From the NCBI GenBank assembly GCA_035995165.1, contig DASYKU010000007.1, positions 1 to 36,624 on the forward strand: DNA of 36,624 nt, given 5' to 3'. Below the pieces are notes generated by a model. It worked only from the letters and a program-made list of their open reading frames with translations, did not search any database and was not told the DNA's origin. Position numbers and translations under genes: made by a program. Below are positions 7,426 to 23,537 of this stretch, piece after piece (position 1 is the first letter of the stretch; each line of letters opens with the position of its first letter). The DNA is from Mycobacteriales bacterium. GTDB lineage: Bacteria; Actinomycetota; Actinomycetes; Mycobacteriales; CADCTP01.

Positions 7426-8178
7426 TCAGTGCACGGCGGTACGCTGCCGGAGCGGGGTGCGGGAGCGGGTGGTCAGCGGCAGCGCCCAGGCCGTGATCGC
7501 CAGCAGAGCGAGCGAGAACAGGAAGCTGGTGGAGGTGTCGGTCGGGTAGTGCATCCCGCGGTACATCCGGCAGGTCGCGACCGTGATCGGCACCAGGACG
7601 CCGACCACCAGCAGCAACGCCCGCAGCCAGACGTGCCGGGTGTGCCAGGCGATCACCAGCGCCGTCCCGACCCAGTACGCGGTGGACGCCGCGGTGTGCC
7701 CGGACGGGAAGCTCGAGGTCGGCGGCGAGTCGTCCAGGTGTGCCACCGGCGGCCGCTTGCGGTCGATGAGCAACGTCCCGACCAGGAAGATCAACGACTG
7801 ACCGATCACGCAGACGACCAGGAACACCGACTCGCGCCAGCGGTGGAACACGATCCGGAACACGACCACGGTGATCGCGGTGAGCCCGACGATCGTCACG
7901 GTCTCGCCGAACAGTGTCCCGATGTGGGTCAGCGTGTTGACGGTCGGCGTGCGATGCGAGGCGAACCAGCGGTCCACCCCCGCGTCGTCCTTCGCGAACC
8001 CGGTGTTCTCCACGACCTTCGTGATGAGCAGCCCGATCAGCACGACCACGACGCCGACCGCGACGAACCAGGGGACCGCCCGGCGGCCGGCCGCGCCCAG
8101 TTCCTGCCAGAGGGTGCGTTCGCCTGCCGGTCTGATGACGGTCACCACCGGCAGATACCCAATCGGCATTCCAACCAT
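7426..8178 (-). CDS. PAP2-family membrane phosphatase
   Basis: The product is 250 aa with about five or six hydrophobic segments. It carries the three phosphatase motifs of the PAP2/acid phosphatase superfamily: KRPPVAHLDD, PSGHTA (with the catalytic His) and RMYRGMHYPTD. Family members remove phosphate from lipid phosphates or polyprenyl pyrophosphates at the membrane. The actual substrate is unknown. The annotated ATG at 8176-8178 lies only 19 bp from the divergent methyltransferase start. Met4 (8167-8169) or a later GTG are possible alternative starts, and no clear ribosome binding site precedes any of them. Confidence 0.92.
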   Translation of the reverse strand: MVGMPIGYLPVVTVIRPAGERTLWQELGAAGRRAVPWFVAVGVVVVLIGLLITKVVENTGFAKDDAGVDRWFASHRTPTVNTLTHIGTLFGETVTIVGLTAITVVVFRIVFHRWRESVFLVVCVIGQSLIFLVGTLLIDRKRPPVAHLDDSPPTSSFPSGHTAASTAYWVGTALVIAWHTRHVWLRALLLVVGVLVPITVATCRMYRGMHYPTDTSTSFLFSLALLAITAWALPLTTRSRTPLRQRTAVH

Positions 8179-8197
8179 GTGTCACACTTCCCCGATC

Positions 8198-9217
8198 ATG
8201 CGGTACGGCCTACTCATCTCCCCCTCCGCGAATCGCGTCTATGCCGAGTCCTCCGTCGCGCTCACCCGCGCCGAGCTGGAGCTCTTCGGCCGGTCCGCGC
8301 TCGGCGACCGGATCACCGACACCGAGCTCAGCACCATCGGCGGGGTGCCGTACGTGACGTTCACGGCGGAGCTGACCGAGCGGGACGTCGCGTACCTGTC
8401 CAACCTGTCCTCGGTCTACGCGCTGTTCTCCTTCGAGGGCGAGCTGCTGCGACCGGTCCCGCTGCGCCCGCTGGACCGGTACGACGACGACCTCATCACG
8501 ATCCAGAAGTACTCCGGCAAGACCAACGAGCACTTCACCAAGCTGCTGCTCAACGTGACCGTGCTGTCCTCGGCGTTCGCGGGCGATCTGCTGGACCGGC
8601 GGCTGCGGGTGCTGGACCCGCTCTGCGGCCGCGGCACCACGCTCAACCAGGCCCTCATGTACGGCTTCGACGCGGCCGGGATGGACGTCGACGGCAAGGA
8701 CGTCGAGGCGTACTCGGCGTTCCTGTCGACCTGGCTCAAGCGGAAGCGGATCAAGCACCACATCGACACCGCACCGATCCGGCGCAACCGGCAGGTGGTG
8801 GCCCGGCGGGTGCACGCGACGCTGGCGGCGAGCCGGGAGGACCACAAGGCCGGCGCGACCCAGGACGTCGAGGTCATCGGCCAGGACACCGTACGGGCGC
8901 GGGAGTTCTTCCGGGCCGGGAGCTTCGACGTGATCGTGGCCGACGCGCCGTACGGGGTGCAGCACGGCAGCCGGACCGGCGCCGCGCTGGCCCGCAGCCC
9001 GTTGGAGCTGCTGGCCGCGGCCGCGCCGGTCTGGCGGGAGCTGCTGCGGCCGGGCGGGGCGGTCGGGATCGCTTGGAACACGCACGTGGCGAAGCGCGAG
9101 GACGCGGCCGGGCTGCTCGCCGACGCCGGGCTCGAACCGCTGCCGCTGGAGGGGTTCCGGCACCGCGTCGACCAGTCCATCGCCCGCGACATCCTCACCG
9201 CCCGGCGCCCCGCCTGA
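8198..9217 (+). CDS. Trm11/TrmG10-like RNA methyltransferase
   Basis: The product is 339 aa. The frame is open further upstream, but the upstream part is antisense to the PAP2 gene; ATG 8198 gives the natural N-terminus MRYGLLISPSANRVY. A KYSGKTNEHFTKLLLN segment (104-119) precedes SAM-binding motif I DPLCGRGTT (140-148). The catalytic motif IV is DAPYG (249-253). This arrangement, with the SGKTN box before motif I and D-x-PYG, is typical of N2-guanine tRNA methyltransferases of the Trm11/TrmG10 class. Those are mainly known from archaea and eukaryotes, with poorly studied bacterial relatives. No full THUMP domain is obvious. There is no ribosome binding site at the ATG, so the mRNA may be leaderless; Met at 8177 is an alternative start. 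Confidence 0.82.
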   Translation: MRYGLLISPSANRVYAESSVALTRAELELFGRSALGDRITDTELSTIGGVPYVTFTAELTERDVAYLSNLSSVYALFSFEGELLRPVPLRPLDRYDDDLITIQKYSGKTNEHFTKLLLNVTVLSSAFAGDLLDRRLRVLDPLCGRGTTLNQALMYGFDAAGMDVDGKDVEAYSAFLSTWLKRKRIKHHIDTAPIRRNRQVVARRVHATLAASREDHKAGATQDVEVIGQDTVRAREFFRAGSFDVIVADAPYGVQHGSRTGAALARSPLELLAAAAPVWRELLRPGGAVGIAWNTHVAKREDAAGLLADAGLEPLPLEGFRHRVDQSIARDILTARRPA

Positions 9218-9280
9218 ACCTCCCCGCCCACCCTCTCCCACTCCGCGCTCCCGCCGACGGCCGAGAGTCAGCGTCCGAGG

Positions 9281-9396: not shown

Positions 9397-10062
9397 TCAG
9401 AGCAGGGACAGGATGTGGTCGAGGCCGCGCGGGCCGGTCTTGGCCGGCGGCGGCAGCAGGAACGCGTAGAGGCCGGCACCGACGGCGCCCGAGTCGGTCA
9501 GCGGGTTGTCGCCGACCATCAGGCAGCGGGCCGGGTCGACACCGAGCTGGTCGCAGGCCGTACGGAACACTCTCGGGTCCGGTTTGCAGACACCGTGCTC
9601 GAAGGACATCACCACTGTGTCCAGGTACGGCGAGATGCCCAGCTGGCCCATCGCCGGCCGCAGGTCGAACCCGGTGTCGCTGACCACTCCGATCCGCAAC
9701 CCCCGCTCCCGTACGGCCCGGAGCGTGGGCACGGTGTCGGGGAAGGCCTCCCAGGAGTCGGCGCTGATCGTCGACGCGTACAGGGCGTCGCTCAGGCCGG
9801 GGGTCAGGGTCTCGCAGCCGGCCTCGGTGTAGAGCGCGGTCCAGACCTCGCGGTGCCGGGCGCTGGAGAGATCGCGGCCCTTGGCCAGCTCCTCGGCCGT
9901 GCTGCTGCGGTCGAGCACCCGCCGCCAGACCTGCCGGACCCGATCCGGGTCGAGGGACGTGCCGAGCCGGGCCGCCGCCTCATGCAGCAGCGTCTCGCCG
10001 TTGCCGGACAGCCGGATCATCGTGTCGCCGGCGTCGAACAGGACGGCCTGGAAGTGACTCAA
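9397..10062 (-). CDS. HAD-superfamily phosphatase-like hydrolase
   Basis: The product is 221 aa with a HAD core and inserted helical cap (subfamily IA). Motif I is LFDAGDT (nucleophile Asp10), motif II lies in VVSDTG, motif III Lys in CKPDPRVF, and motif IV in MVGDNPLTDSG. In motif I the position two after the nucleophile, often the general acid, is Gly, as in some HAD enzymes. It probably removes phosphate from a small metabolite. It is the second gene of a minus-strand pair with the CDP-alcohol phosphatidyltransferase, whose reading frame overlaps its first 83 bases. Motif I starts so near the N-terminus that the start cannot be moved far. Its position beside the 10841-17623 operon suggests a role in the same pathway. 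Confidence 0.88.
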   Translation of the reverse strand: MSHFQAVLFDAGDTMIRLSGNGETLLHEAAARLGTSLDPDRVRQVWRRVLDRSSTAEELAKGRDLSSARHREVWTALYTEAGCETLTPGLSDALYASTISADSWEAFPDTVPTLRAVRERGLRIGVVSDTGFDLRPAMGQLGISPYLDTVVMSFEHGVCKPDPRVFRTACDQLGVDPARCLMVGDNPLTDSGAVGAGLYAFLLPPPAKTGPRGLDHILSLL

Positions 10063-10753
10063 GTCCGGGTCCCCTCAGAGCGCGGTGCCGCCAGAGCCAG
10101 ACGATGGACCGACCGAACGATTCGACCAGCAGGGCCAGCGCGACCGCCAGCATCACTACGTTCAGTGCCCGGGGCAACACGTCCGCGGCCGCGACCACGA
10201 GCGCGATGCCCTGGATCACGGCCACTGCCTTGCCCCAGAGACGCCCCGGCAGCGGGGCCCGCAGCCACGGGAGCGCCCAGCCGGCGGCGATGAACGCGTA
10301 CCGCATCGCGCCGATCGCGAGCACCCAGACGCCGGCCGGCCGGACCAGGTAGACGCTCAGCACGAGCAGCAGGTATGCGTCGACCTCGTAGTCGAAGCGG
10401 GCGCCGCGCTCGGACTCGGTGTGGGTCCGCCGGGCGACCCAGCCGTCGACCGAGTCGAGCGACAGCGCGAGCGCGGCCAGCGGGACCAGCACCGCCCGCG
10501 GCGCCGGGCCGGTCCCGGTCAGCGCGTCCACGGCCAGCGCGGTCACGCCGCCGACCAGCGTCGCCCGGAACAGCGTGACCCGGTCGGCCGGCCCGAGGGT
10601 CTGGTGGCGCAGGACGGCCCAGAGCTCGGCGCCGTACGCGATCCCGGCCAGCCAGGCCCACGGACCCAGACCGGTCGTCGCGGCCAGCGCCGCGAGGACG
10701 AGGATCTGCACAGCGAATCCGATCGCCGGACCGGTCCGAACCGTCGGCACCAT
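9980..10753 (-). CDS. CDP-alcohol phosphatidyltransferase
   Basis: The product is 257 aa, an integral membrane protein with about six hydrophobic helices. The signature DG-x2-AR-x8-G-x3-D-x3-D is exact: Asp103, Gly104, Ala107, Arg108, Gly117, Asp121, Asp125. Such enzymes transfer a phosphatidyl or similar phospho-alcohol group from a CDP-activated donor to an alcohol (inositol, glycerol phosphate or others), using the aspartates to bind Mg. The last about 28 residues (after WLWRHRALRG) are Arg-rich, hydrophilic and encoded inside the HAD gene in another frame, so they may be a read-through tail. It is divergent from the dehydrogenase operon across 87 bp and probably functions with it. Confidence 0.9.
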   Translation of the reverse strand: MVPTVRTGPAIGFAVQILVLAALAATTGLGPWAWLAGIAYGAELWAVLRHQTLGPADRVTLFRATLVGGVTALAVDALTGTGPAPRAVLVPLAALALSLDSVDGWVARRTHTESERGARFDYEVDAYLLLVLSVYLVRPAGVWVLAIGAMRYAFIAAGWALPWLRAPLPGRLWGKAVAVIQGIALVVAAADVLPRALNVVMLAVALALLVESFGRSIVWLWRHRALRGPGLESLPGRPVRRRRHDDPAVRQRRDAAA

Positions 10754-10840: not shown

Positions 10841-11818
10841 ATGGCAGGCGAAGCCAAGGCGTTCTGGCTGCGCGAGCCCGGCGTCGGCGAGCTCCGGACC
10901 GTCCGGCTACCGGCTCGCGGCGACGCGGACGTGCTGGTCAGGACCCTGTTCTCGGGGATCAGCCGGGGCACCGAGACCCTGGTCTTCCGCGGCCAGGTGC
11001 CACCCGGTCAGTACGGGACCATGCGCGCTCCGTACCAGGAGGGCGACTTTCCGGCCCCGGTGAAATACGGCTACCTGAACGTCGGGGTGGTCGTCGAAGG
11101 TCCGCTGGCCGGCCGGACCGTGTTCTGCCTCTACCCGCACCAGAGCGCGTACGTGGTGCCGGCCTCGGCGGTGCTGCCGGTCCCGGACGGCGTCCCGGCC
11201 GGGCGGGCGATCCTGGCCGGCACGGTGGAGACCGCGGTGAACGCGCTCTGGGACGCCCGGCCGCTGCTCGGCGACCGGGTCAGCGTGGTCGGCGCCGGCA
11301 TGGTCGGCTGCTGCGTGGCTGCGCTGCTGGCCCGCATCCCCGGGGTCGACGTGCAGGTCGTGGACGCGGACCCGGGCCGGGCACCGGTCGCGGCCGCGCT
11401 CGGGGCCGGCTTCGCGCGGCCGGCCGACGCCACCGGCGGCCGGGACCTGGTCGTGCACGCGAGCGCGACCGCGGCCGGACTGCAGCGCTCGCTGGAGCTG
11501 CTGGCCCCGGAAGGCCGCGTGGTCGAGCTGAGCTGGTACGGCGACCGCGAGGTCACGCTCGCCCTCGGCGGCGCCTTCCACTCCGGCCGGCTCTCGATCA
11601 GCAGCAGCCAGGTCGGGACCGTGGCCCGGCCGGACCGGACGTACGCCGACCGGCTCGGGCTGGCGCTGGAGCTGCTGCGGGACCCGGCGTTCGACGTCCT
11701 GATCACCGGGGAGTCCGCGTTCGAGGAGTTGCCCGGCGTGCTGGCCGGGCTGGCCGCGGGGACGCTGCCGGCGCTCTGCCACCGCATCCGCTACGACACC
11801 AGCCACGACGGGGGATGA
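10841..11818 (+). CDS. MDR-family dehydrogenase without catalytic zinc ligands
   Basis: The product is 325 aa from ATG 10841, supported by GGGAGGA at 10829-10835. It has the medium-chain dehydrogenase/reductase layout: an N-terminal GroES-like part and an NAD(P)-binding Rossmann fold with VVGAGMVGCCVAALLA. The substrate region carries FSGISRGTET (about 37-46) where zinc alcohol dehydrogenases have their Cys ligand. This places it near BchC-like and related zinc-independent members. It is the first gene of the plus-strand operon: the QueD-like gene starts three bases after its stop, so the products are probably made together. Substrate unknown; in context it may reduce or oxidise the GTP-derived or sugar moiety. 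Confidence 0.88.
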   Translation: MAGEAKAFWLREPGVGELRTVRLPARGDADVLVRTLFSGISRGTETLVFRGQVPPGQYGTMRAPYQEGDFPAPVKYGYLNVGVVVEGPLAGRTVFCLYPHQSAYVVPASAVLPVPDGVPAGRAILAGTVETAVNALWDARPLLGDRVSVVGAGMVGCCVAALLARIPGVDVQVVDADPGRAPVAAALGAGFARPADATGGRDLVVHASATAAGLQRSLELLAPEGRVVELSWYGDREVTLALGGAFHSGRLSISSSQVGTVARPDRTYADRLGLALELLRDPAFDVLITGESAFEELPGVLAGLAAGTLPALCHRIRYDTSHDGG

Positions 11819-11821
11819 GCC

Positions 11822-12220
11822 GTGTTCAGCGTGACCGTCCGTGATCACATGATGATCGCCCACAGCTTCACCGGGGCGGTCTTCGGGCCGGCCCAGCGGC
11901 TGCACGGCGCGACGTACGTCGTGGACGCCACCTTCCGCCGGGGCGAGCTCGACCCCGACGGGCTGGTCGTCGACATCGGCGCCGCGTCCCAGGAGCTGGC
12001 CGCGCTGCTCGGCGCGCTGAACTACCGCAACCTCGACGACGAGCCCGACTTCGCCGGCACGAACACCTCGACCGAGGCGCTGGCCAAGGTCGTCGCCGAC
12101 CGGCTGGCCGACCGGATCCACGCCGGCGCGTTCGGTGAGCACGCGCGCGGGCTGGCCGGGATCCTGGTCACGCTGCACGAGTCACACATCGCGTGGGCGA
12201 GTTACGAGCGCGTCCTATGA
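11822..12220 (+). CDS. QueD/PTPS-fold protein lacking canonical catalytic residues
   Basis: The product is 132 aa from GTG 11822, three bases after the dehydrogenase stop. Aligned by eye to E. coli QueD (6-carboxytetrahydropterin synthase), the fold landmarks remain: MMIAHSF with zinc His14, RLHGATYVV with His28, [14 protein letters not shown], and LHES with substrate-anchoring Glu120. Several key residues are changed. The catalytic Cys27 position is Ala24, the third zinc ligand His33 is Ala30, and the Asp70-His71 pair is Asn67-Tyr68. It is therefore unlikely to perform the standard QueD or PTPS reaction, though it probably binds a pterin- or pyrimidine-like ligand. Database tools will probably call it 6-carboxytetrahydropterin synthase, which I would treat with caution. 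It shares an ATGA overlap with the next gene. Confidence 0.87.
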
Positions 12221-13245
12221 GGACCCTGCACGTCGTCCTGCCCAACGACATCGACGACCCCCGTACGCCGAGCGGCGGCAACGTCTACGACCGCCGGCTC
12301 CTGCGGGGCCTGTCCGCCCGCGGCTGGACCGTGGTCGAGCTGGCCGTCCCGGGCAGCTGGCCGGCCCCGTCACAGGACGAGCGGGCCTTCCTGGCCCGGA
12401 CCCTGGCCGCGCTGCCGGACGACGCGCTCGTGCTGGTCGACGGGCTGGTCGGCTCGGCCGCGCCGGACGAGCTGGTGCCGGCGGCGAAGCGGCTGCGGCT
12501 GGTCCCGCTGGTGCACATGCCGCTGGGCGACGACGCCGAGGCCAAGGTGCTCACCGCGGCCCGGGCGGTGGTCACGACCAGCCCGTGGACCCGTGACCTG
12601 CTCGACGTGCCGCCGCCGGTGACGGTCGCGACGCCCGGGGTGGACCCGGCCCCGCTGGCGCCCGGGTCGCCGGCCGGTTCCCGGCTGCTCTGCGTCGCCG
12701 CGGTGTCCCCGCACAAGGGCCACGACCTGCTCACCGACGCGCTGACCTCGGTCGGACAGCCGTACGAGTGCGCGTACGTGGGATCGCTGACGAGGGAGCC
12801 GGAGTTCGTCGCCGCGCTGCGGGACCGGGCACCCGGCACGATCCGGTTCGCGGGCCCACTGGTCGGCGCCGACCTCGACGCCGCGTACGCGCGGGCCGAC
12901 CTGCTCGTGCTCGCCTCCCGCGGGGAGACGTACGGGATGGTGGTGACGGAGGCGCTCGCCCGCGGCGTGCCGGTGCTCGCGACCGCGGTCGGCGGGCTGC
13001 CGGACGCGCTCGGCGAGGCCCCGGACGGCAGCGTGCCCGGGCTGCTCGTGCCGCCGGAGGACCCCGGCGCGTTGGCCGCGGCGCTGCGGCGCTGGCTGAC
13101 CGACGCCGACCTGCGGGCGCGGCTGCGGCGCTCGGCCGTGGCCCGACGGGAGACGCTCACCGGCTGGGACGTCACCGCCGGCATCGTCGCGGACGTCCTG
13201 ACCGGGATCCCGGCGGTCCCGGCCGGCTTCCCGGGTGACGCGTGA
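12217..13245 (+). CDS. GT4-type glycosyltransferase
   Basis: The product is 342 aa. The start is ATG 12217, which overlaps the preceding stop (ATGA). It has two Rossmann domains of GT-B type. The N-terminal domain begins [10 protein letters not shown] with a Gly-rich acceptor loop [10 protein letters not shown]. The C-terminal donor domain has [12 protein letters not shown] and the E-x7-E motif in [18 protein letters not shown], followed by VGGLPD. These are hallmarks of retaining GT4 enzymes using nucleotide sugars. No signal or membrane segments are seen; it works in the cytoplasm, perhaps at the membrane surface. Given its neighbours it may glycosylate a pterin/pyrimidine or lipid-linked intermediate. 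The acceptor is unknown. Its stop overlaps the next start (GTGA). Confidence 0.93.
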
Positions 13246-14012
13246 TCGACTTCGCGGACTGGCTGGCGCTGCGGGAGCCGGCCGACGCCGCCGCGCGCTC
13301 GACCGAGCTGGTCCGGCGGCTGCGGGCGCGGGCCCCGCTGGTGATCCACGACCTCGGCAGCGGGACCGGCTCGATGGTGCGCTGGCTGGCCCCGCAGCTG
13401 CCCGGCCCGCAGCACTGGGTGCTGCACGACCGTGACCCGGCGCTGCTGCGGCGGGCCGTCGCGAGCCTGCCGGCCGGGGTGACGGCCGAGACCCGGGGCG
13501 GCGACCTGACCCGGCTGACCGCCGCCGATCTGGCCGGCGCGTCCCTGGTCACCGCGTCGGCGCTGCTCGACATGCTCACGGCCGAGGAGGTCGAGCGGAT
13601 CGTCGGGGCCTGCGCCGGGGCGCCGGCGTTGCTGACGCTCTCCGTGATCGGCCAGGTCGAGCTGGACCCGCCCGACCCGCTGGACGCGGCGCTCGCGGCC
13701 GCCTTCGACGACCACCAGCGCCGGACGGTCGGGGGCCGCACGCTGCTCGGCCCGGACGCCGCCGCCACGGCCGCCGCGGCCTTCCGCCGGCGCGGCCGCC
13801 CGGTCGAGGTCCGGGACACCCCCTGGCGGCTGGGATCCGGCGCGCTGACCGAGGAGTGGCTCACCGGTTGGGTGGGTGCCGCGTGCGGGCAACGGATCGA
13901 GCTGACCGGGCGGGCGACGGCGTACGCGGCCCGGCGCAGGGATGACATGGCCGCGGGCCGGCTCGGCGTCGTCGTCGGCCACGCCGATCTCCTGGTGCCG
14001 GGAATCGTCTGA
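13242..14012 (+). CDS. SAM-dependent class I methyltransferase
   Basis: The product is 256 aa from GTG 13242 (4-base overlap with the glycosyltransferase stop). Motif I is VIHDLGSGTGSMVRWLAP, followed by an acidic strand end WVLHDRDPALL and a post-I region SLVTASALLDMLTAEEVE, matching a seven-strand Rossmann methyltransferase. It is soluble and has no recognisable substrate-specific domain. It sits in the middle of the operon and probably decorates the same intermediate as the glycosyltransferase. A 57-bp gap follows before the membrane protein gene, which has its own ribosome binding site. Confidence 0.88.
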   Translation: MIDFADWLALREPADAAARSTELVRRLRARAPLVIHDLGSGTGSMVRWLAPQLPGPQHWVLHDRDPALLRRAVASLPAGVTAETRGGDLTRLTAADLAGASLVTASALLDMLTAEEVERIVGACAGAPALLTLSVIGQVELDPPDPLDAALAAAFDDHQRRTVGGRTLLGPDAAATAAAAFRRRGRPVEVRDTPWRLGSGALTEEWLTGWVGAACGQRIELTGRATAYAARRRDDMAAGRLGVVVGHADLLVPGIV

Positions 14013-14069
14013 ACCCGGGTCCCGCTTCCGACGTGGATCCAGCAGTAAGTGCCGTTCGAGGGGAGACCG

Positions 14070-15200
14070 ATGACGAGCGCACCGGTGCTGCCGCCTCCGG
14101 CGCCGCCCGCCCAGAGACCCGGCCGCGGGCCGTCCCGCGCCGGGCTGAGGCGGCGGACGATCTGGGCCTGGGCCCGACCGCTGACCGGCCTGGCCATCCT
14201 CGCCGTCCTGGTCTGGCGGCTGGGGACCGGCCCGTTCCTGGACGCGCTGCGCCAGATCGACGCCGGCTCGCTGGCGGTGGCGTTCGCGATCGGGATCGTC
14301 ACCACCGTGGCCTCGGCCTGGCGGTGGAGCGTGGTCGCGGGTGGGCTGGGGCTCGCGCTCCCGCTGCGGACCGCGGTCGCCGACTGCTACCGGTCGATCT
14401 TCCTCAACTCGACGCTGCCGGGCGGCGTGCTCGGCGACGTGCACCGGGCGGTCAACCACGGGCGCGAGGTCGGCGATGTGTCCCGGGGCGTACGGGCTGT
14501 GGTCTGGGAGCGCACCGCGGGCCAAATCGTTCAGGTGGCCTTGATGGTGGTCGTCCTGTTCGCGTTCCCGTCGCCCGTGCGCTCGGCGATGCCGCTGGTC
14601 GCCGGCATCGGCGTCACGGTCGTGCTGGCCGTGGCGCTGCTGGTCTGGCTGCTCCCGCACAACGGCCTGTCCCGCTGGGCCCGCGGGGTCCGGACGGCCC
14701 GGGCCGACGTCCGTGACAGCCTGCTCGCCCGCCGGGTCTGGCCCCGCGCGCTCGTCGCGTCCGTGGTCGCGGTGACCGGGCATGCGGCAACCTTCCTGGT
14801 CGCCGCGCACGCCGCCGGGTCGCACGCGCCAATGAGGCTGCTCATCCCGCTCGCGCTGCTCATGCTCGCGGTGATGACCGTGCCGCTGAACGTGGCCGGG
14901 TTCGGCCCGCGCGAGGGCGTGGCGGCGTGGGCGTTCGGCGCGGCCGGGCTGACCGCGGCCCAGGGCGTCACCACCGCCGTGCTGTACGGGGCGCTGGTGC
15001 TGGTCGCGAGCCTGCCCGGCGCGGCGGTGCTGCTGAGCCGGCGGTTGCGGCCGCCGGTGGATCCGGCGGCGCGCCCGGCGCGCCCGGCGGCCGCGCTCGT
15101 ACCGAGCCCGCGAGAGACGACGTACCCGCGGACCTGGGCCGCCCGGACCGCCGCCGCGCGGCTCGTGCGTCCTCGGACCCAAGGCCTCGGCATTGACTGA
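14070..15200 (+). CDS. YbhN/AglD-type lysylphosphatidylglycerol synthase transmembrane protein
   Basis: The product is 376 aa. ATG 14070 follows GAGGGGAGA; an upstream in-frame ATG at 14049 lacks a site. After a Pro-rich cytoplasmic N-terminus there are about eight hydrophobic segments. Family landmarks include FLNSTLPGGVLGDVHRA, VWERTAGQIVQ and the MTVPLNVAGFGPREGVAAW motif, which are typical of UPF0104/LPG synthase_TM proteins. These resemble the flippase half of MprF, and many act near lipid-linked sugars. Here it may flip or handle a lipid-linked product of this operon (inference). Its last 8 bases overlap the GTP cyclohydrolase gene. Confidence 0.88.
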   Translation: MTSAPVLPPPAPPAQRPGRGPSRAGLRRRTIWAWARPLTGLAILAVLVWRLGTGPFLDALRQIDAGSLAVAFAIGIVTTVASAWRWSVVAGGLGLALPLRTAVADCYRSIFLNSTLPGGVLGDVHRAVNHGREVGDVSRGVRAVVWERTAGQIVQVALMVVVLFAFPSPVRSAMPLVAGIGVTVVLAVALLVWLLPHNGLSRWARGVRTARADVRDSLLARRVWPRALVASVVAVTGHAATFLVAAHAAGSHAPMRLLIPLALLMLAVMTVPLNVAGFGPREGVAAWAFGAAGLTAAQGVTTAVLYGALVLVASLPGAAVLLSRRLRPPVDPAARPARPAAALVPSPRETTYPRTWAARTAAARLVRPRTQGLGID

Positions 15201-15807
15201 GGCGCCCGCCGCGACGGTCCGCAGGCAGGTGACGGTCCCGCTCCGGTTTTCCGACGGCTACAGCACGACGGCTCGGGTGTTCACCTTCGACGGGCTCGTC
15301 GACGGCGAGGAGCACCTCGCGGTCGGCCTGGGCGAGCTCGCCGACGACACGGTCCCGCTGGTCCGCCCGCACAGCGAGTGCCTCACCGGCGACGTGTTCG
15401 GCAGCCAGCGCTGCGACTGCGGTCCGCAGCTGCGGGAGGCGGTCGAGCGGATCGCCGGCGTCGGCGGCTACGTGCTCTACCTGCGCCAGGAGGGCCGGGG
15501 CATCGGCCTCTACAGCAAGCTCGACGCGTACGCGCTGCAGGACGCGGGGCTGGACACGTACGAGGCGAACCTGGCGCTCGGGCACGGCGAGGACGAGCGC
15601 GACTACACGGCCGCCGCCCAGATGCTCGCGGCGCTCGGCATCGAGCGGATGGCCCTGTTGACCAACAACCCGGACAAGACCGAGCAGCTCGAGCACCTCG
15701 GCCTGACGATCACCGAGCAGGTGCCGACGGGCGTGCACCGCAGCCCGGCGAACGCCGCGTACCTGGCGGCGAAGGTCCACCACTTCACCCAGACACCGGT
15801 CCGCTGA
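15193..15807 (+). CDS. ribA: GTP cyclohydrolase II (RibA-type)
   Basis: The product is 204 aa from TTG 15193, overlapping the upstream gene by 8 bp. It opens the imidazole ring of GTP, releasing formate and pyrophosphate to give the diaminopyrimidine that starts riboflavin synthesis. Zinc ligands are Cys63, Cys74 and Cys76 in SECLTGDVFGSQRCDCG. The catalytic RQEGRGIGL is at residues 98-106. Tyr113 in DAYALQ is equivalent to E. coli Tyr105, whose replacement by Met in a Streptomyces paralogue gives a formylated product; keeping Tyr predicts genuine GCH II chemistry. It is stand-alone (no RibB domain) and has no other rib genes nearby. Lying in a glycosyltransferase/QueD-like operon, it is probably a pathway-specific paralogue. 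Confidence 0.94.
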   Translation: MTEAPAATVRRQVTVPLRFSDGYSTTARVFTFDGLVDGEEHLAVGLGELADDTVPLVRPHSECLTGDVFGSQRCDCGPQLREAVERIAGVGGYVLYLRQEGRGIGLYSKLDAYALQDAGLDTYEANLALGHGEDERDYTAAAQMLAALGIERMALLTNNPDKTEQLEHLGLTITEQVPTGVHRSPANAAYLAAKVHHFTQTPVR

Positions 15808-15823
15808 CAGACGAGGTCCTACG

Positions 15824-17623
15824 TTGTCCCTCCTGACCCGTTTCCGCCGCCCGGAGACCGAGGACGAGCCGGCCGCCGATGCCGTCGCCGTCCCGGCCGC
15901 CGGGACCGAGGACGCCGCCCCGGAGCCGGGGACCGAGGCGACGACGGACGCTGAATCGAGAGCGGAAGCAGCCGACGGCCAGGTCAAGCGGCGGGGCAAG
16001 GTCCGCGGCGGAATCCTGATCGTGCTCACCGTGCTGGCCGCGATCTTCGTGTTGTTCGCGCTCACCGTCCCGGACAACTACGGCCAGCTGCACGCGAAGT
16101 CCTTCCTCCGGATCCCGCTGGAGGCGCTGGTCGCGGTCGTCGTGCTGCTCGTGCTGCCCCGGCCCGTACGCCGGGTCGTCGCGGTCCTGCTCGGCGTCCT
16201 GCTCGGCCTGCTCACGATCATCAAGGTCATCGACATCGGCTTCACCGCCTCGCTGGCCCGGCCGTTCGACCTGGTGCTCGACTGGTTCCTGCTCGGCTCC
16301 GCGGCCGGGGTCGTGCAGGACTCGATCGGCACGTTCGGCGCGATCCTCGCGGTGATCGGCGCCTTCCTGCTGGTCATCGCGATCCTGACCCTGATGGTGC
16401 TGTCGATGCTGCGGCTGACCACGCTGGTGGTGCGGCACAACCGGGTCGCGGTCGGCGCGACCGCGCTGCTCACGGTCGCCTGGATCGCGTGCGCGGCGTT
16501 CGGCGCGCAGGTGGTGCACGGCGTGCCGGTCGCGTCCCGGGCGGACGAGCAGCTCGTCGTCAACCGCGCCCAGCAGATCCGTACCGGTCTGAACGACAAG
16601 GACGCCTTCCAGCAGGAGGCGGCGGTCGACCCGTTCAAGGACACGCCCGCCAACGAGCTGTTCACGGGGCTGAAGGGCAAGGACGTGGTGCTCACCTTCG
16701 TCGAGTCCTACGGCCGGTACGCGGTCGAGGACCCGACGTTCGCGCCGCCGGTGGACGCACAGCTCGACGCCGGGACGAAGTCGCTGGAGGCGGCCGGGTT
16801 CGCGGCCAGGAGCGGGTGGATCAGCTCCTCGACGGTCGGCGGCGGCAGCTGGCTGGCGCACGCCTCGATGCTGTCCGGGCTCTACATCAACAACCAGCAG
16901 CGGTACCGGTCGCTGACGTCAGGCAACCGGCTGACGCTGACCAGCGCGTTCAAGAAGGCAGGCTGGCACACGGTCAGCACCGAGCCGGTGATCGACCGCG
17001 CCTGGCCGGAGGGCCAGTTCTACGGCTACGAGACCGAGTACAACCTCAACAACCTGGGCTACAAGGGCCCGCACTTCAGCTACGCGACGATGCCGGACCA
17101 GTACACGTACCAGCAGTTCCAGCAGCGCTCGATGCAGCCGGGGCACGCGCCCTTGTTCGCGGAGATCACCACGGTCTCCAGCCACAGCCCGTGGACGCCG
17201 ATCCCGAAGATGGTCGACTGGGACAAGCTCGGCGACGGCTCGATCTTCAACGACCCGGCCAACCAGGCCGGCGGTGCGCCCGGGTCGATCATCGGCGACC
17301 CGAACAAGCTGCGGGCGTCCTACATCGGCTCGATCCAGTACTCGCTCAACGCGCTCATCTCCTACATCGAGACGTACGGCGACAAGAACCTGGTGCTGAT
17401 CTTCCTCGGCGACCACCAGCCGGCACCGGTGGTGACCGGGCAGGACGCCAGCCGGGACGTGCCGATCACGATCGTGGCCAAGGACCCGGCGGTGCTCGAC
17501 AAGATCTCGTCCTGGGACTGGACGGACGGGCTACGGCCGGCGCCGAACGCGCCGGAGTGGCGGATGGACGCCTTCCGCAACAACTTCATGACCGCCTTCG
17601 GCTCGACCCCGTCGACCCACTAG
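15824..17623 (+). CDS. Membrane-anchored LtaS-like sulfatase/phosphotransferase
   Basis: The product is 599 aa from TTG 15824, with GAGG at 15813-15816. A charged, Ala/Glu-rich cytoplasmic tail (1-55) is followed by about five transmembrane helices (60-230) and an extracellular alkaline-phosphatase-fold domain. That domain has TFVESYGR (Glu294/Ser295 in the metal/nucleophile region), VSSHSPW (452-458) and LGDHQP (Asp530-His531). The architecture matches LtaS and phosphoethanolamine/phosphoglycerol transferases, which move phospho-alcohol groups from lipids to glycans outside the membrane; the nucleophile here appears to be Ser rather than the usual Thr. It ends the operon and pairs naturally with the CDP-alcohol phosphatidyltransferase. 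A hairpin lies about 40 bp beyond the stop. Confidence 0.85.
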   Translation: MSLLTRFRRPETEDEPAADAVAVPAAGTEDAAPEPGTEATTDAESRAEAADGQVKRRGKVRGGILIVLTVLAAIFVLFALTVPDNYGQLHAKSFLRIPLEALVAVVVLLVLPRPVRRVVAVLLGVLLGLLTIIKVIDIGFTASLARPFDLVLDWFLLGSAAGVVQDSIGTFGAILAVIGAFLLVIAILTLMVLSMLRLTTLVVRHNRVAVGATALLTVAWIACAAFGAQVVHGVPVASRADEQLVVNRAQQIRTGLNDKDAFQQEAAVDPFKDTPANELFTGLKGKDVVLTFVESYGRYAVEDPTFAPPVDAQLDAGTKSLEAAGFAARSGWISSSTVGGGSWLAHASMLSGLYINNQQRYRSLTSGNRLTLTSAFKKAGWHTVSTEPVIDRAWPEGQFYGYETEYNLNNLGYKGPHFSYATMPDQYTYQQFQQRSMQPGHAPLFAEITTVSSHSPWTPIPKMVDWDKLGDGSIFNDPANQAGGAPGSIIGDPNKLRASYIGSIQYSLNALISYIETYGDKNLVLIFLGDHQPAPVVTGQDASRDVPITIVAKDPAVLDKISSWDWTDGLRPAPNAPEWRMDAFRNNFMTAFGSTPSTH

Positions 17624-18380: not shown

Positions 18381-19174
18381 GACCGCACGCCCTCGACGAA
18401 CGACCAGCCCGTGGCCAACGCGGTCCGCAGCGTCTCGTCCGGATCGGCCGTGACCACGACCAGCAGTCCCCGCCCGGCGTCCCAGACCCCACCCGGCGGC
18501 GGCGCCGCATCCGCCCGGCCGCGCCGCAGCACCAGCCGGGTCCGGACCGCGGCCGGCGCGTCCACCGCGGCCAGGACCCCGCCGCGAACGGCGTACGTCG
18601 CGTCGGCCTCCGGGGAGACGGCGGTCTCGTGCCCGCTGAGCAGCACCGCCGCCCCGTGCTCGCGGGCGCCGAGCACCAGCCCGGTCAGCGCCGCCGCGGC
18701 CGCCGGGTCCAGCCCCGTGTACGGCTCGTCGAGCACGAGCAGCGCGGTCGGCGCCAGCAGCGCCTGGGTCAGCGCGACCTTCTGGCTGTTGCCCTTGGAC
18801 AGCTCCCCGACCGGGACGTCCGGCCCGGGCCGCAGCCCGAGCCGCTCGAACAGCTCCTCCGCCCGCGCCGTCACCGCCGGCGCGGGCAGCCCGCGCAGCC
18901 GGCCCATGTGCCGGACGTACTGCCGGGCCGTCATCCGCAGCTCGGCCGGCAGCCGCTCGGGCACGTACGCGGCCGGGCCGGCCGGGCGCAGCACCCGCCC
19001 CCGGGTCGGCGCCGACGCGCCCACGACCGTCCGCAGCAGCGTCGACTTGCCGGACCCGTTGCCGCCGACGACGAGCGTCACCGCCCCGGCCGCGAACGTG
19101 GCGTCGATCCCGTCGAGCACCCAGGGCTCGGCCCGCCCGAACCGCTTGCGGACGCCCTCCAGCCGCACGCTCAC
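18377..19174 (-). CDS. ABC transporter ATP-binding protein
   Basis: The product is 265 aa from GTG 19172-19174, which overlaps the stop of the MaoC gene (GTGA). Walker A is GGNGSGKST (37-45). The signature loop reads ELSKGNSQKV, a variant with Asn-Ser in place of the usual Gly-Gln. Walker B is LLVLDEPYTGLD and the switch His lies in LLSGHET. The ORF could be extended upstream, but that extension is antiparallel junk within the MaoC gene. It partners with the permease at 17733-18380. Its presence at the end of a CoA-thioester operon is unexpected; it may export or regulate a pathway compound, or simply share the promoter. Confidence 0.92.
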   Translation of the reverse strand: MSVRLEGVRKRFGRAEPWVLDGIDATFAAGAVTLVVGGNGSGKSTLLRTVVGASAPTRGRVLRPAGPAAYVPERLPAELRMTARQYVRHMGRLRGLPAPAVTARAEELFERLGLRPGPDVPVGELSKGNSQKVALTQALLAPTALLVLDEPYTGLDPAAAAALTGLVLGAREHGAAVLLSGHETAVSPEADATYAVRGGVLAAVDAPAAVRTRLVLRRGRADAAPPPGGVWDAGRGLLVVVTADPDETLRTALATGWSFVEGVRS

Positions 19175-19932
19175 GCCGGCTCCCAGCGCCCGGCCGCCGT
19201 CTGCCGGCCGCCCCGGTCGCGCACCGCGGCGGTCCCGTCCGGCGCCGCGGACACCCGCATCCCCTGGAAGTCGAACAACGGCGCCAGCAACCGGTACGAG
19301 AACGTGCCCCGCGGCCCCGCCCGCAGCGACCAGGCCATGGCCAGCGCCTGCAGCGGGCCGTGCGTGAGCAGCCCGGGGTATCCCTCGACGTCGCGCGCGT
19401 AGTCCCGGTCGTAGTGGATCCGATGCCCGTTGTACGTCAGCGCCGAGAACCGGAACAGCAGGGTCGGCGAGGTCTCGATCTCCCACTCCCGCGGCCCGGC
19501 CGGGACCGGATCATCCTGTACCCCAGGCAGTTCCGGGCCGGGCGCCCGGTAGACGACGTCCTGCTCCTCCACGATCACGGCCCGGCCGCCCTGCCTGATC
19601 TCGTGCGTCACGGTGACGAACGTGAGCGGGCCCGACGTCCCCTCTTTGTCCACAGTGGACGTCACCGCGCTGTTCCGGCGCGCCTCCTGTCCGAAGTGGA
19701 CGGAGCCGAGCACGCGGACCCGGCCGCCGGCCCACATCCGGCGCCGGCCCGGCCCCGGCGGCACCAGCGTGACCCCGCGGACCGGGTGCCCGTCCGGGCC
19801 GAGGTCGGCCTGCGGCGGCCGGTCGAGCAGGTAGACCCAGTGCCACAGCGGCGGCAGCTCAGCGGCGGGCGCGGGTACGCCGAGCAGGCCGGCCAGCGCG
19901 GCCGCCGGCCCCGGCGTGATCAGCTCATCCAC
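19171..19932 (-). CDS. MaoC/HTD2-type hydratase (FAS1-like dehydratase domain)
   Basis: The product is 253 aa with a double hot-dog layout. The N-terminal half contains LPPLWHWVYLLDRPPQADLG and GRRRMWAGGRVRV; the C-terminal half has the hydratase region FSALTYNGHRIHYDRDYARD followed by YPGLLTHGPLQA. This is the pattern of mesaconyl-C4-CoA hydratase and HTD2-like enoyl-CoA hydratases, which add water to a 2-enoyl-CoA. It is cytoplasmic. The start overlaps the CoA-transferase stop by 8 bp. With its neighbours (CoA-transferase, acyl-CoA dehydrogenase, MmgE/PrpD) it fits a CoA-ester degradation route. Confidence 0.88.
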   Translation of the reverse strand: MDELITPGPAAALAGLLGVPAPAAELPPLWHWVYLLDRPPQADLGPDGHPVRGVTLVPPGPGRRRMWAGGRVRVLGSVHFGQEARRNSAVTSTVDKEGTSGPLTFVTVTHEIRQGGRAVIVEEQDVVYRAPGPELPGVQDDPVPAGPREWEIETSPTLLFRFSALTYNGHRIHYDRDYARDVEGYPGLLTHGPLQALAMAWSLRAGPRGTFSYRLLAPLFDFQGMRVSAAPDGTAAVRDRGGRQTAAGRWEPA

Positions 19933-21163
19933 CGCGCTTGACCGCCTCGGTGTGCTCGCCCGGCGCCGGTACCGGCCCCAGCGACGGCGTCCAGCCCGCC
20001 ACCGTGACCGGCGGGAGCAGCGTCCGGACGGGACCGCCGGGGGTGTCCACCGACCGCCACCGGTCCCGGGCCGCGAGCTGCGGGTGGTCGGCGAGCTCGG
20101 CCGCCGTTCGCAGCCGCGCGTTGGCGATGCCGATCCCGTCCAGCCGTTCGGCGGCCTCGTCCGCGGTCATCCCGGCGAGGCCGGCCTCGATCCGGGCGGT
20201 GATCTCGTCGTCGTGGGCGACCCGGTCCGGGTTCGCCGGGAACCGCGCCGCCAGCGCCGGATCGTCCAGCAGCCGTGCGCACAGCACGGCCCACTCGCGG
20301 TCGTTCTGCACGCCGATGAACACCGCCGCCCCGTCCCCGGCCACGTACGGCCCGTACGGCGAGATCGACGCGTGCCGCGCGCCGACCCGGCGCGGCGGCG
20401 CCCCGCCGTACACGGAGAACAGCATCGGCTGGGTCATCCACTCGCCCAGTGCCTCCAGCATCGACACCTCGAACGAGCTGCCGTGCCCGGTGCGTTCCCG
20501 GTCGTAGAGGGCGGTGAGGATGCCGGTGTAGGCGTACATGCCGGCGGCGATGTCGGCGACGGAGATGCCGACCTTGGCCGGCTCGTCCGGGGTCCCGGTC
20601 ACCGACAGGACCCCGGCCTCGCACTGGACCAGCAGGTCGTACGCCTTCTTGGCGGCGTACGGGCCGCCGGCGCCGTAGCCGGAGACCGAGCAGGTGATCA
20701 GCCGGGGGTGCGCCGCGGTCAGCGTCGACGCGCCGAGACCGAAACGCTCGGCGACGCCCGGCTTGAGGTTCTGTACGAACACGTCGGCGCCCGCCAGCAG
20801 CGAGCGCAGTACGGCCAGGTCGGCGGGCACGGCGAGGTCGAGCGTCACGCTCTCCTTGCTCCGGTTGAGCCAGACGAAGTAGCTGGACTGGCCGCGCACG
20901 GTCGTGTCGTAGCCGCGGGCGAAGTCGCCGCCCGGGCGCTCGACCTTGATCACCCGGGCGCCGAGGTCGGCCAGCTGCCGGGTCGCGAACGGAGCCGCGA
21001 CGGCCTGTTCCAGCGCCACCACCGTCACGCCCGCCAGCGGCCCGGCCGCGCCCGCCGGCGCCCCGTCCCCGGCCAGCCGCCCGGCCGCACCCGCCGGCGG
21101 CGCCCCGTCCCCGGCCGGTGCCGGGCCCCCGGCCGTGTCGGGCGTCTTGCCCGGCGAGCTCAT
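19925..21163 (-). CDS. Family III CoA-transferase (CaiB/BaiF type)
   Basis: The product is 412 aa. The ATG at 21161-21163 overlaps the acyl-CoA dehydrogenase stop (ATGA), so this start is favoured. The core begins with GVTVVALEQAVAAPFATRQL and carries the catalytic Asp in AKKAYDLLVQCEAG, plus the conserved EVSMLEALGEWM. These enzymes move CoA between acyl-CoA and a carboxylic acid through an aspartyl-CoA thioester. The first about 48 residues are an unusual Ala/Gly/Pro-rich extension made of two near-identical repeats, absent from typical members, and probably disordered. The operon context suggests it activates the substrate acid for the following dehydrogenase and hydratase. Confidence 0.94.
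   Translation of the reverse strand: MSSPGKTPDTAGGPAPAGDGAPPAGAAGRLAGDGAPAGAAGPLAGVTVVALEQAVAAPFATRQLADLGARVIKVERPGGDFARGYDTTVRGQSSYFVWLNRSKESVTLDLAVPADLAVLRSLLAGADVFVQNLKPGVAERFGLGASTLTAAHPRLITCSVSGYGAGGPYAAKKAYDLLVQCEAGVLSVTGTPDEPAKVGISVADIAAGMYAYTGILTALYDRERTGHGSSFEVSMLEALGEWMTQPMLFSVYGGAPPRRVGARHASISPYGPYVAGDGAAVFIGVQNDREWAVLCARLLDDPALAARFPANPDRVAHDDEITARIEAGLAGMTADEAAERLDGIGIANARLRTAAELADHPQLAARDRWRSVDTPGGPVRTLLPPVTVAGWTPSLGPVPAPGEHTEAVKRGG
21036..21116. repeat. Approximate 39/42-bp tandem duplication
   Basis: Units 21036-21074 and 21075-21116 differ by one 3-bp insertion and a few substitutions. They encode the repeated GDGAP-AGAAG-LA segments in the N-terminal extension of the CoA-transferase. 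The frame is preserved. Confidence 0.8.
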
Positions 21164-22317
21164 CGGCCCGCCGGGTTACGCTTGATCAACTGGCGGGTGA
21201 TCACGGTCCGCTGGATCTCGTTCGTCCCCTCGCCGACGATCATGAGCGGCGCGTCCCGGAAGTACCGCTCGACGTCGAACTCGGTGGAGTACCCGTACCC
21301 GCCGTGCACGCGGACCGCGTCCAGCGCGACCTTCATCGCGGTCTCCGACGCGAACAGCTTCGCCATGCCGGCTTCCAGGTCGGCCCGCTCGCCGGACTCG
21401 TAGACCCGGGCCGCGTGCAGGACGAGCTGACGCGCCGCCTCCACCGAGGTCGCCATGTCCGCGAGCAGGTTGCCGACCGACTGGTGCTGCCAGATCGGCT
21501 GCCCGAAGCTCTCCCGCTCCTGGGCGTACCGCAGCGAGTCCTCCAGCGCGGCGGCGCCGACCCCGACCGCCCGGGCCGCGACCTGGATCCGGCCGATCTC
21601 CAGCCCTCGCATCATCTGGGCGAACCCGGACCCCTCGGCGCCGCCGAGCAGCGCGGACGCGGGCACCCGGAAGTCGTCGAAGGCCAGCTCGCAGCTCTCC
21701 ACGCCCTTGTAGCCGAGCTTGGGCAGGTCCCGGGAGACGGTGAAGCCGGGACCGTGCTCGACCAGCAGGATGCTCACCCCCCGGTGCGGCGGCGACGCCT
21801 CCGGGTCGGTCTTGCACAACAGCGCGACCAGCTGGGACCGGCGGGCGTTGGTGATCCAGGTCTTCGACCCGTTCACCACGTACGCGTCCCCGTCACGACG
21901 GGCTACGGTCCGCATCGCCTGCAGATCGGACCCGCCGCCGGGCTCGGTCAGCGCCATCGTCGCCCGGACCTCGCCGGTCGCCATCCGGGCCAGGTAGCGG
22001 TCCTGCTGCTCCTCGGTCCCGTACGCCAGCAGCAGCTTGGCCACCACGGTGTGCCCGCCCATCGCGCCGGCCAGGCTCATCCACCCCCGCGCCAGCTCCT
22101 CGGTCACCGCGGCGTAGCAGGGCGTGGACACGACCGCCTCGCCCCACGGCGCCGGGATCGCCAACCCGAAGATCCCCAGCTGCTTCATCCGCTCGATGAG
22201 CTTCTCCGGGTACGTGTTCTCGTGCTCCAGCTCCCGGACCACTGGCTTCACGTCGCGATCCACGAACTCACGCACCAGCGCGACGATCGCCGTCTCGTCC
22301 TCGGTCAGCTCGTTCAT
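21160..22317 (-). CDS. Acyl-CoA dehydrogenase
   Basis: The product is 385 aa, normal for the family. It introduces a 2,3 double bond into an acyl-CoA using FAD and passes electrons to ETF. Signature regions are ATMALTEPGGGSDLQAMRT (flavin/substrate), VNGSKTWITNA, and VHGGYGYSTEFDVERYFRDA. The probable catalytic Glu is in VGEGTNEIQRTVI. ATG 22315-22317 overlaps the MmgE/PrpD stop. It is the second gene of the minus-strand operon. The chain specificity cannot be read; the mix of neighbours points to a short branched or dicarboxylic acyl-CoA. Confidence 0.96.
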   Translation of the reverse strand: MNELTEDETAIVALVREFVDRDVKPVVRELEHENTYPEKLIERMKQLGIFGLAIPAPWGEAVVSTPCYAAVTEELARGWMSLAGAMGGHTVVAKLLLAYGTEEQQDRYLARMATGEVRATMALTEPGGGSDLQAMRTVARRDGDAYVVNGSKTWITNARRSQLVALLCKTDPEASPPHRGVSILLVEHGPGFTVSRDLPKLGYKGVESCELAFDDFRVPASALLGGAEGSGFAQMMRGLEIGRIQVAARAVGVGAAALEDSLRYAQERESFGQPIWQHQSVGNLLADMATSVEAARQLVLHAARVYESGERADLEAGMAKLFASETAMKVALDAVRVHGGYGYSTEFDVERYFRDAPLMIVGEGTNEIQRTVITRQLIKRNPAGR

Positions 22318-23537
22318 GCTGGTCCCTCGGGTAGGTGGGTGCGAAGCACATCGGCCGCGGTCGACCAGGTCACCGGGCCGATGTCCAGGCCGGCCGTGCA
22401 GTCGTCGATCTTGGCCTGCAGCTCGGCGCCGGTCGGCGGCCGTGCGGGCGAACCCGGCGGGAGCTGCTGGCTGACCCGCAGGGTCTGCGTCCCGGTCCGG
22501 ACCTCGGCCTCCAGCGACCCGGCCAGCAGCCCGTCCCCGCCCGGGCTCAGCTCGACCTCGACCCGCGAGACGAGCTCCCGGGCCGCAGGCCGGCGGGCGG
22601 CCGCGTCGGTGAACGCCTCGAACCCCGAGTACGGGTCGAGCAGCGCGGTCGCGGCCGCGTACTCCAGGCTGAACTTGGCCTGCAGCCCGGTCTCGGGCCG
22701 GTGGTGGATGAGCGGCGCGACCGTCGCCTCGGGAGTGCGCAGCACGATCCGGTCGACCGCGGCCGGATCGAGCCGGTCCCGCAGCGAGGCCAGCGCGCTG
22801 ATCGGCCGCTGCAACGCGTAGCAGCAGGGATAGACCTTGATCGCCAGCCCGCCGGGCACCGCCGGCCCGCCCAGATCGATCGCGCCCCGGCCGGGGTCGG
22901 CCAGGTCCGGCGGAGAAACCCCGCCGACCAGCGCGAACCAGGCGTCGACCGCGGCGAGGTCGGCCCCCGCGCCGGCCGCCGCGAGCCGCGCCGCCCGTAC
23001 CCCGGCGTCCACCGCGAACCCGACCTGCAGCGACTTCGCGTCGGTCCCGAACGCCCGCTGCACCCCGCCCGCGCCCGGCACCGCCAGCGCCAGCGCGGTC
23101 GCCGTCGCGTCCACGCCCAGACCGAGTGCGACCGAGGCCCCGGCCGCGGCCCCGAGCGCCCCGGCGGTGCAGGTCGCATGCCAGCCGGCCGCGTAGTGGG
23201 CCCAGCCCAGGGCGGCGCCGAGCCGCGCCATCACCCCGGCCCCGGCCAGGTACGCCCGGGCGTCACCGCCGGCTGACAGCACCGCCGGCACGCAGACCAC
23301 GCTCACGTGCGAGGTCGATTCCATGTGCAGGTCGTCGAAGTCGAGCACGTGCCCGGCCGCCGCCCACCGGCCGCCCGGCCCGAGCGCACCCGCGGCCAGC
23401 GCCGCCACCGGGTGGTCGCGGGCGGCCAGCGTCACCGCGACCGTGTCCCGCAGCGACCGGTCGGCCAGCTCGAGGTCGGCCGGGGTGGGCCGCAGCGCGC
23501 CGGCCCAGTCGGCGAGGTCGTACGCGATCGAGCCCAC
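22314..23537 (-). CDS. MmgE/PrpD family protein
   Basis: The product is 407 aa from GTG 23535-23537. It has the features of the family that includes 2-methylcitrate dehydratase: HVLDFDDLHMESTSHVS, a mainly helical N-terminal domain rich in Ala, FGTDAKSLQVGFAVDAGVRA, and KVYPCCYALQRPISA. Family members are dehydratases or isomerases of citrate- or itaconate-like acids; cis-aconitate decarboxylase is also related. It is the promoter-proximal gene of the operon. A TTGAAT hexamer (23550-23545 on the minus strand) lies seven bases before the GTG and no ribosome binding site is seen, so the transcript could be leaderless. Confidence 0.9.
   Translation of the reverse strand: MGSIAYDLADWAGALRPTPADLELADRSLRDTVAVTLAARDHPVAALAAGALGPGGRWAAAGHVLDFDDLHMESTSHVSVVCVPAVLSAGGDARAYLAGAGVMARLGAALGWAHYAAGWHATCTAGALGAAAGASVALGLGVDATATALALAVPGAGGVQRAFGTDAKSLQVGFAVDAGVRAARLAAAGAGADLAAVDAWFALVGGVSPPDLADPGRGAIDLGGPAVPGGLAIKVYPCCYALQRPISALASLRDRLDPAAVDRIVLRTPEATVAPLIHHRPETGLQAKFSLEYAAATALLDPYSGFEAFTDAAARRPAARELVSRVEVELSPGGDGLLAGSLEAEVRTGTQTLRVSQQLPPGSPARPPTGAELQAKIDDCTAGLDIGPVTWSTAADVLRTHLPEGPA

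Follow-up and report, generated by a model that had tools for sequence, protein, structure and literature searches.

A pathway-specific GTP cyclohydrolase II in a variant of the actinobacterial SCO6650-type gene cluster, and its alternation with a creatininase-family gene

The stretch of DNA analyzed here, 36,624 nt long and hereafter called the window, comprises bases 1-36624 of contig C7 in an actinobacterial genome of 5.37 Mb and 162 contigs. On its plus strand we observe an operon that starts with a zinc-type (MDR) alcohol dehydrogenase-like protein (10841..11818), whose ADH_zinc_N match is below cut-off and whose gene is kept in nearly all loci of this kind. There follow a PTPS/T-fold protein orthologous to SCO6650 (11822..12220), a GT4 glycosyltransferase recognized by profile matches (12217..13245), a class I SAM methyltransferase recognized by profile and fold search (13242..14012), a flippase-like membrane protein of the LPG_synthase_TM family (14049..15200, starting at 14049 or 14070), a GTP cyclohydrolase II (GCH II; 15193..15807), and a membrane protein with a C-terminal alkaline-phosphatase/sulfatase domain (15824..17623). 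The intergenic gaps along this run are 3, -4, -4, 36, -8, and 16 nt from the dehydrogenase to the sulfatase-fold protein, and since the GCH II gene overlaps its predecessor by 8 nt and 16 nt separate it from its successor, we place it in a compact operon. Divergent from the operon is a CDP-alcohol phosphatidyltransferase family protein (9980..10753, minus strand) that is kept in most loci, and a HAD-family hydrolase (9397..10062, minus strand), which in L035, L067, and L161 likewise lies next to the cluster, is possibly part of it.

A structure model (mean pLDDT 85.7) points to an LtaS/LtaP/GacH-like fold for the last protein of the operon. Its nearest structures are the LtaS/LtaP lipoteichoic acid synthases and GacH, at Z 21-22 over about 270 residues, with 2w5q and 4uop at the top (Z 22.4 for both; rmsd 3.9 and 3.4 over 276 and 269 aligned residues). 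EptC and MCR-1 follow at Z 20-21, and because they trail by only one or two units, we assign the protein to a class and not to a substrate: judged by its model, it is predicted to be a membrane phosphotransferase, phosphoglycerol transferases being closest by fold. The fold search with the methyltransferase model (pLDDT 96) returned the general class I fold only, which is no guide to substrate. Elsewhere in the window, the frame at 8213-9241 (minus strand) has no family match, and the frame opposite to it, at 7871-9214 (plus strand), has a weak methyltransferase match. A tight minus-strand run at 19171-23537 encodes dehydratase-like, CoA-transferase family III, acyl-CoA dehydrogenase, and MmgE/PrpD proteins, and looks like acyl-CoA catabolism.

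The GCH II gene specifies 204 residues from a TTG start. Its product matches PF00925 at 191 bits (Pfam cut-off 23.3) and the RibA subfamily model PRK00393 at 256 bits (NCBIfam cut-off 148), and falls slightly below the cut-off of TIGR00505 (191.4, cut-off 205.85). Aligned to E. coli GCH II (2bz0), it keeps zinc-binding Cys54, Cys65, and Cys67 as C63, C74, and C76, Asp126 and Arg128 as D134 and R136, and the tyrosine that acts as a switch, Tyr105, as Y113. The Pfam and RibA matches together with this residue-level alignment rule out a chance open reading frame, and the alignment bears out an earlier note on this DNA, which had described all zinc and catalytic residues as kept, Tyr113 included. 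Having Tyr113, the enzyme does not fit the FAPy-forming type represented by SCO6655, in which Met or another residue replaces Tyr at the switch. Because the tyrosine is kept, and because clusters with a Tyr-type enzyme lack the creatininase-family gene that is present in every non-Tyr cluster (see below), we infer, as that note had supposed, that the product is the diaminopyrimidine of riboflavin synthesis.

The earlier note had also proposed that this GCH II is pathway-specific and lies outside a riboflavin operon, and had advised a search for a second ribA or ribBA, as a sole GCH II would simply be the housekeeping enzyme. The genome does encode a second GCH II, a RibBA fusion that sits beside riboflavin synthase, rpe, and fmt on contig C130; the window's gene is therefore not the only one and is ruled out as the housekeeping copy, and it stands in a conserved non-riboflavin cluster. 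The phylogeny that the note called for agrees. We built a tree of 106 GCH II rows, in which 33 of 37 Tyr-type cluster copies, the window's among them, group in one clade (support 99) that is distinct from both housekeeping RibBA and the 41 non-Tyr copies; the other four (L041; L123, L180, and L185) are placed elsewhere. The slot for GCH II in these clusters has therefore been filled by different lineages of the enzyme. One could still read the window's copy as a redundant extra RibA that raises riboflavin supply and whose position in the cluster carries no pathway meaning: its catalytic residues are all kept and could feed riboflavin, and several genomes have three to five GCH II genes. We find this improbable, however, as riboflavin is already served by RibBA, and the Tyr-type cluster copies both form a clade of their own and keep the same neighbors across many families. 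The window's GCH II is a real, pathway-specific enzyme in a variant of a cluster type that is already known though still unexplained.

That cluster type is recognized by the PTPS-fold protein, which matches SCO6650 of Streptomyces coelicolor (PDB 3d7j) over its full length (E 3.8e-67) and the Pfam PTPS family at E 1.1e-22, and scores 32 with the QueD model, under its cut-off of 89. QueD/PTPS enzymes have an HGH zinc motif and a catalytic Cys. In the window protein the motif reads HGA, and the relevant stretch contains no Cys. Of 168 distinct sequences, 167 have HGA and the remaining one HGV, His14, His28, and Glu120 are invariant, and these key residues do not differ between Tyr and non-Tyr clusters. 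The suspicion that a QueD-like neighbor lacks its normal catalytic site is thus confirmed, with both the third zinc His and the catalytic Cys gone. The paper on the SCO6650 structure is said to report a lost zinc site and catalytic triad and a retained pterin-binding pocket. From these residues, the kept Glu120 and the lost zinc site would fit a protein whose substrate is the product of GCH II or a derivative of it. The invariant Glu would also suit a pterin enzyme supplied by GCH I, with GCH II on a separate branch, but the loss of the third zinc His in all 168 sequences, the missing Cys in the window protein, and the repeated pairing of the PTPS-fold gene with GCH II or RibD_C in the neighborhoods we fetched make that arrangement very unlikely. 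The function of PTPS-V has been described as unclear (PMC5041015).

Because its PTPS-fold protein is orthologous to SCO6650, we assign the window's cluster to the SCO6650-SCO6655 type, whose MDR, GT4, and flippase-like neighbors are also present here. SCO6650 and SCO6655 have each been the subject of separate study, and the cluster type is known. Our literature searches found no paper on the SCO6650-SCO6655 cluster or its pathway; they returned one mention each of SCO6655 and SCO2687, in an expression table (PMC2853524), and one of SCO6652 (PMC3610822).

A scan with the PTPS-fold protein returned at least 549 related places. The best 80, those most like the window, were kept, and a further 100 regions were hand-picked from whole-genome matches; neither set is random. 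In sampled whole genomes the protein occurs in 129 of 397 from the order, 57 of 394 from the class, and 9 of 396 from the phylum. All loci were scanned with HMMs built from the first 80, and removal of identical PTPS sequences left 171 distinct loci, 49 of them without a GCH II in view. One genome (G783) has two PTPS orthologues on two contigs (L164 and L165), 77% and 71% identical to the window's, and two others (G581 and G594) each have five PF00925 matches, with several GCH II paralogues.

Most relatives examined combine a GCH II different from the window's with a creatininase-family gene, and the presence of that gene follows the switch residue closely. Before duplicates were removed, 92 loci had a residue other than Tyr (55 loci with Met, 29 with His, 6 with Leu, and one each with Cys and Gln), and a creatininase-family gene lay within the stretch read in 91 of these and in none of the 39 Tyr loci, the window included; for distinct loci the figures are 83 of 84 and 0 of 38. 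The sole non-Tyr miss, L196, has a creatininase about 13 kb from its PTPS gene, and five Actinomadura loci (L003, L004, L006, L008, and L011) all have one. Among loci in which no GCH II is seen, one carries a decayed creatininase with an in-frame stop (L145:12156-12534), two near relatives of it (L135 and L143) have neither gene, and Sciscionella marina has a creatininase (L060:13102-13569) with no GCH II within 10 kb on either side.

We also searched 59 chosen genomes in full, with the creatininase of the window's own genome as query. A close creatininase (54-65% identical) was present in all 21 genomes taken as non-Tyr (the residue was read in 20, all except the Streptomyces-group G984) and in 2 of 27 Tyr genomes, and was found in none of the 10 genomes with a GCH II-less cluster, nor in the one same-genus genome without the cluster. 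The two Tyr genomes are the window's and G674, and in both the gene is unlinked to the cluster. In the window's genome it lies on contig C3 (L203:4418-5107), is 60-63% identical to the cluster type, and is close to the genome's uvrA and to a frame resembling class IV aminotransferases. Contamination is unsupported: C3 looks native because it carries the genome's only close uvrA match (others are 42-50% identical). A formamidase might therefore exist in the window's genome after all. The G674 creatininase has a GCH II about 7 kb away (L214:17674-18522), but this enzyme is Tyr-type and stands among genes that look unrelated. A second creatininase of the window's genome, on contig C93 (L204, region 27000-46000), has SDR and TetR-like neighbors in what we take to be a mycofactocin region.

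Few independent switches lie behind this pattern. On a tree built from the two backbone proteins (91 rows, after the Streptomyces Met rows among 121 distinct loci were thinned to one in four), the Tyr/non-Tyr state and the creatininase change three times each, and the residue itself ten times. Supported branches hold 2 independent switches between Tyr and non-Tyr (3 in the best tree), concordant in 200 of 200 pairings, and the sign test on these switches is not significant (p 0.5). When GCH II loss is counted too (113 rows, 112 of them concordant; same thinning, with loci kept if 6 kb flanked the PTPS gene on each side, and L163 and L180 dropped), the best tree has nine changes of each trait, and 4 of 4 independent pairs on supported branches agree, fully so in 195 of 200 pairings and with one non-differing pair in the other 5; here, too, the sign test is not significant (p 0.125). 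L196 was entered by hand as creatininase-bearing in both tests, and the two trees were built quickly and have long branches. The association is thus nearly perfect, but its independent switches are few, and it is striking without being statistically proved.

What the creatininase might do is suggested by BrbF, a creatininase-family protein that deformylates FAPy, as a formamidase, in Sinorhizobium and Brucella, and whose FAPy-forming partner is described in that paper as undiscovered (PMC9478397). One cluster creatininase (L049) matches the creatininase Pfam family at 216 bits (cut-off 31.3), and the three tested stay under the NCBIfam equivalog cut-offs, with 35-39 bits for ArfB (cut-off 180) and 133-135 bits for MftE (cut-off 172). 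As no equivalog cut-off is reached and the scores are nearer MftE than ArfB, it is from gene context only that we call the protein a putative FAPy deformylase. SCO6655, with Met at the switch, reportedly makes FAPy, and changing the Met to Tyr is said to have restored formation of APy (Spoonamore and Bandarian, in 2006). If this chemistry is joined with deformylation by a BrbF-like protein, a non-Tyr GCH II plus creatininase should therefore equal a Tyr-type GCH II alone.

A competing explanation holds that the substrate of the creatininase is a different amide of the pathway, or a peptide as in the case of MftE, and not FAPy, so that Tyr and non-Tyr clusters would have different end products, based on APy and FAPy respectively. 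It draws on the scores nearest to MftE, below cut-off as they are, and on the division of the clusters into two groups by the switch residue, which extends to further neighbors: among loci seen completely, an LtaS-like gene is present in 27 of 33 with Tyr versus 14 of 82 non-Tyr ones. Yet the MDR, PTPS, GT4, flippase, and CDP-OH genes are common to both groups, as are the key residues of the PTPS-fold protein, and the creatininase is absent only where a Tyr would restore one-step deformylation or where GCH II is not in view (L060, with a creatininase and no GCH II in view, goes the other way). We therefore judge this explanation rather unlikely.

Deformylation of FAPy by the creatininase, the reading we prefer, can be followed one step further through the RibD_C genes: of the loci seen completely, such a gene is present in 30 of 33 with a Tyr-type GCH II and in 19 of 31 that have no GCH II. 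Four short RibD_C proteins that have no deaminase domain (L041, L198, L108, and L194) score 116-136 bits with the archaeal diaminopyrimidine reductase model (cut-off 186). Their presence and these scores suggest reduction of the ribosyl chain as the following step, and the RibD_C genes in GCH II-less loci suggest that the route may also draw on APy made elsewhere. The window's cluster and two Planosporangium loci have no RibD_C gene inside the cluster; the window's genome has other RibD_C genes.

We think it probable that a dedicated GCH II feeds a non-riboflavin pathway of the SCO6650 type, in which the Tyr enzyme does the work of a non-Tyr GCH II and a creatininase, and that the downstream steps follow from the neighboring genes; each reaction is inferred from the genes described above. 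The window's GCH II would convert GTP to 2,5-diamino-6-ribosylamino-4(3H)-pyrimidinone 5'-phosphate (APy) in one step, with loss of formate and pyrophosphate. In non-Tyr clusters the GCH II would stop at the formylated FAPy, and the adjoining creatininase-family protein would remove the formyl group to give APy. In many clusters a stand-alone RibD_C reductase would act next, by analogy with the Arf route of archaea. The PTPS-fold protein, devoid of its zinc site, may use its invariant Glu to bind this pyrimidine or one of its derivatives, completion of the molecule may fall to the dehydrogenase, methyltransferase, and glycosyltransferase, and the CDP-alcohol transferase, the flippase-like protein, and the LtaS-like enzyme may place the product in or across the membrane. 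More tentatively, and with somewhat less than even confidence, we suggest that many actinobacteria have an undescribed pathway from GTP to a glycosylated, possibly lipid-linked pyrimidine or pteridine, with an Arf-like start whose first two steps are interchangeable between a FAPy-forming GCH II with a creatininase-family formamidase and a Tyr-type GCH II. The exchange between Tyr and creatininase points to a precursor common to all variants, APy or its reduced form, and assigns the cluster creatininase a testable job.

Like bacterial RibA and RibBA, the window's GCH II has the fold family, zinc cysteines, and switch Tyr; unlike them, it is without a RibB domain, outside a rib operon, and in a clade separate from actinobacterial RibBA. 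The PTPS-fold protein shares its Pfam family and invariant Glu with QueD and 6-pyruvoyl tetrahydropterin synthase, but has HGA for HGH and no catalytic Cys. With the SCO6650-SCO6655 cluster of S. coelicolor the window shares the orthologous PTPS-fold protein, and the same neighborhood is seen in Streptomyces relatives; it differs in having a GCH II of another lineage with Tyr in place of the Met that SCO6655 is said to have, and in the absence of a creatininase from the cluster. Non-Tyr clusters with RibD_C would match archaeal ArfA, ArfB, and ArfC, at the start of riboflavin and F420 synthesis, in the order of reactions, with a FAPy-former, a deformylase, and a deaminase-less reductase. They differ in using a GCH II homologue in place of GCH III, which is not known to be related to GCH II, in a creatininase that scores far under the ArfB cut-off, and in a non-riboflavin setting. 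The likeness to BrbF is by description and at the level of the creatininase family; as that account has it, the FAPy-former of BrbF is undiscovered, whereas in non-Tyr clusters a GCH II adjoins the creatininase. These clusters show a probable FAPy-forming GCH II side by side with a putative formamidase in bacteria, and so the kind of partner missing for BrbF in rhizobia (PMC9478397).
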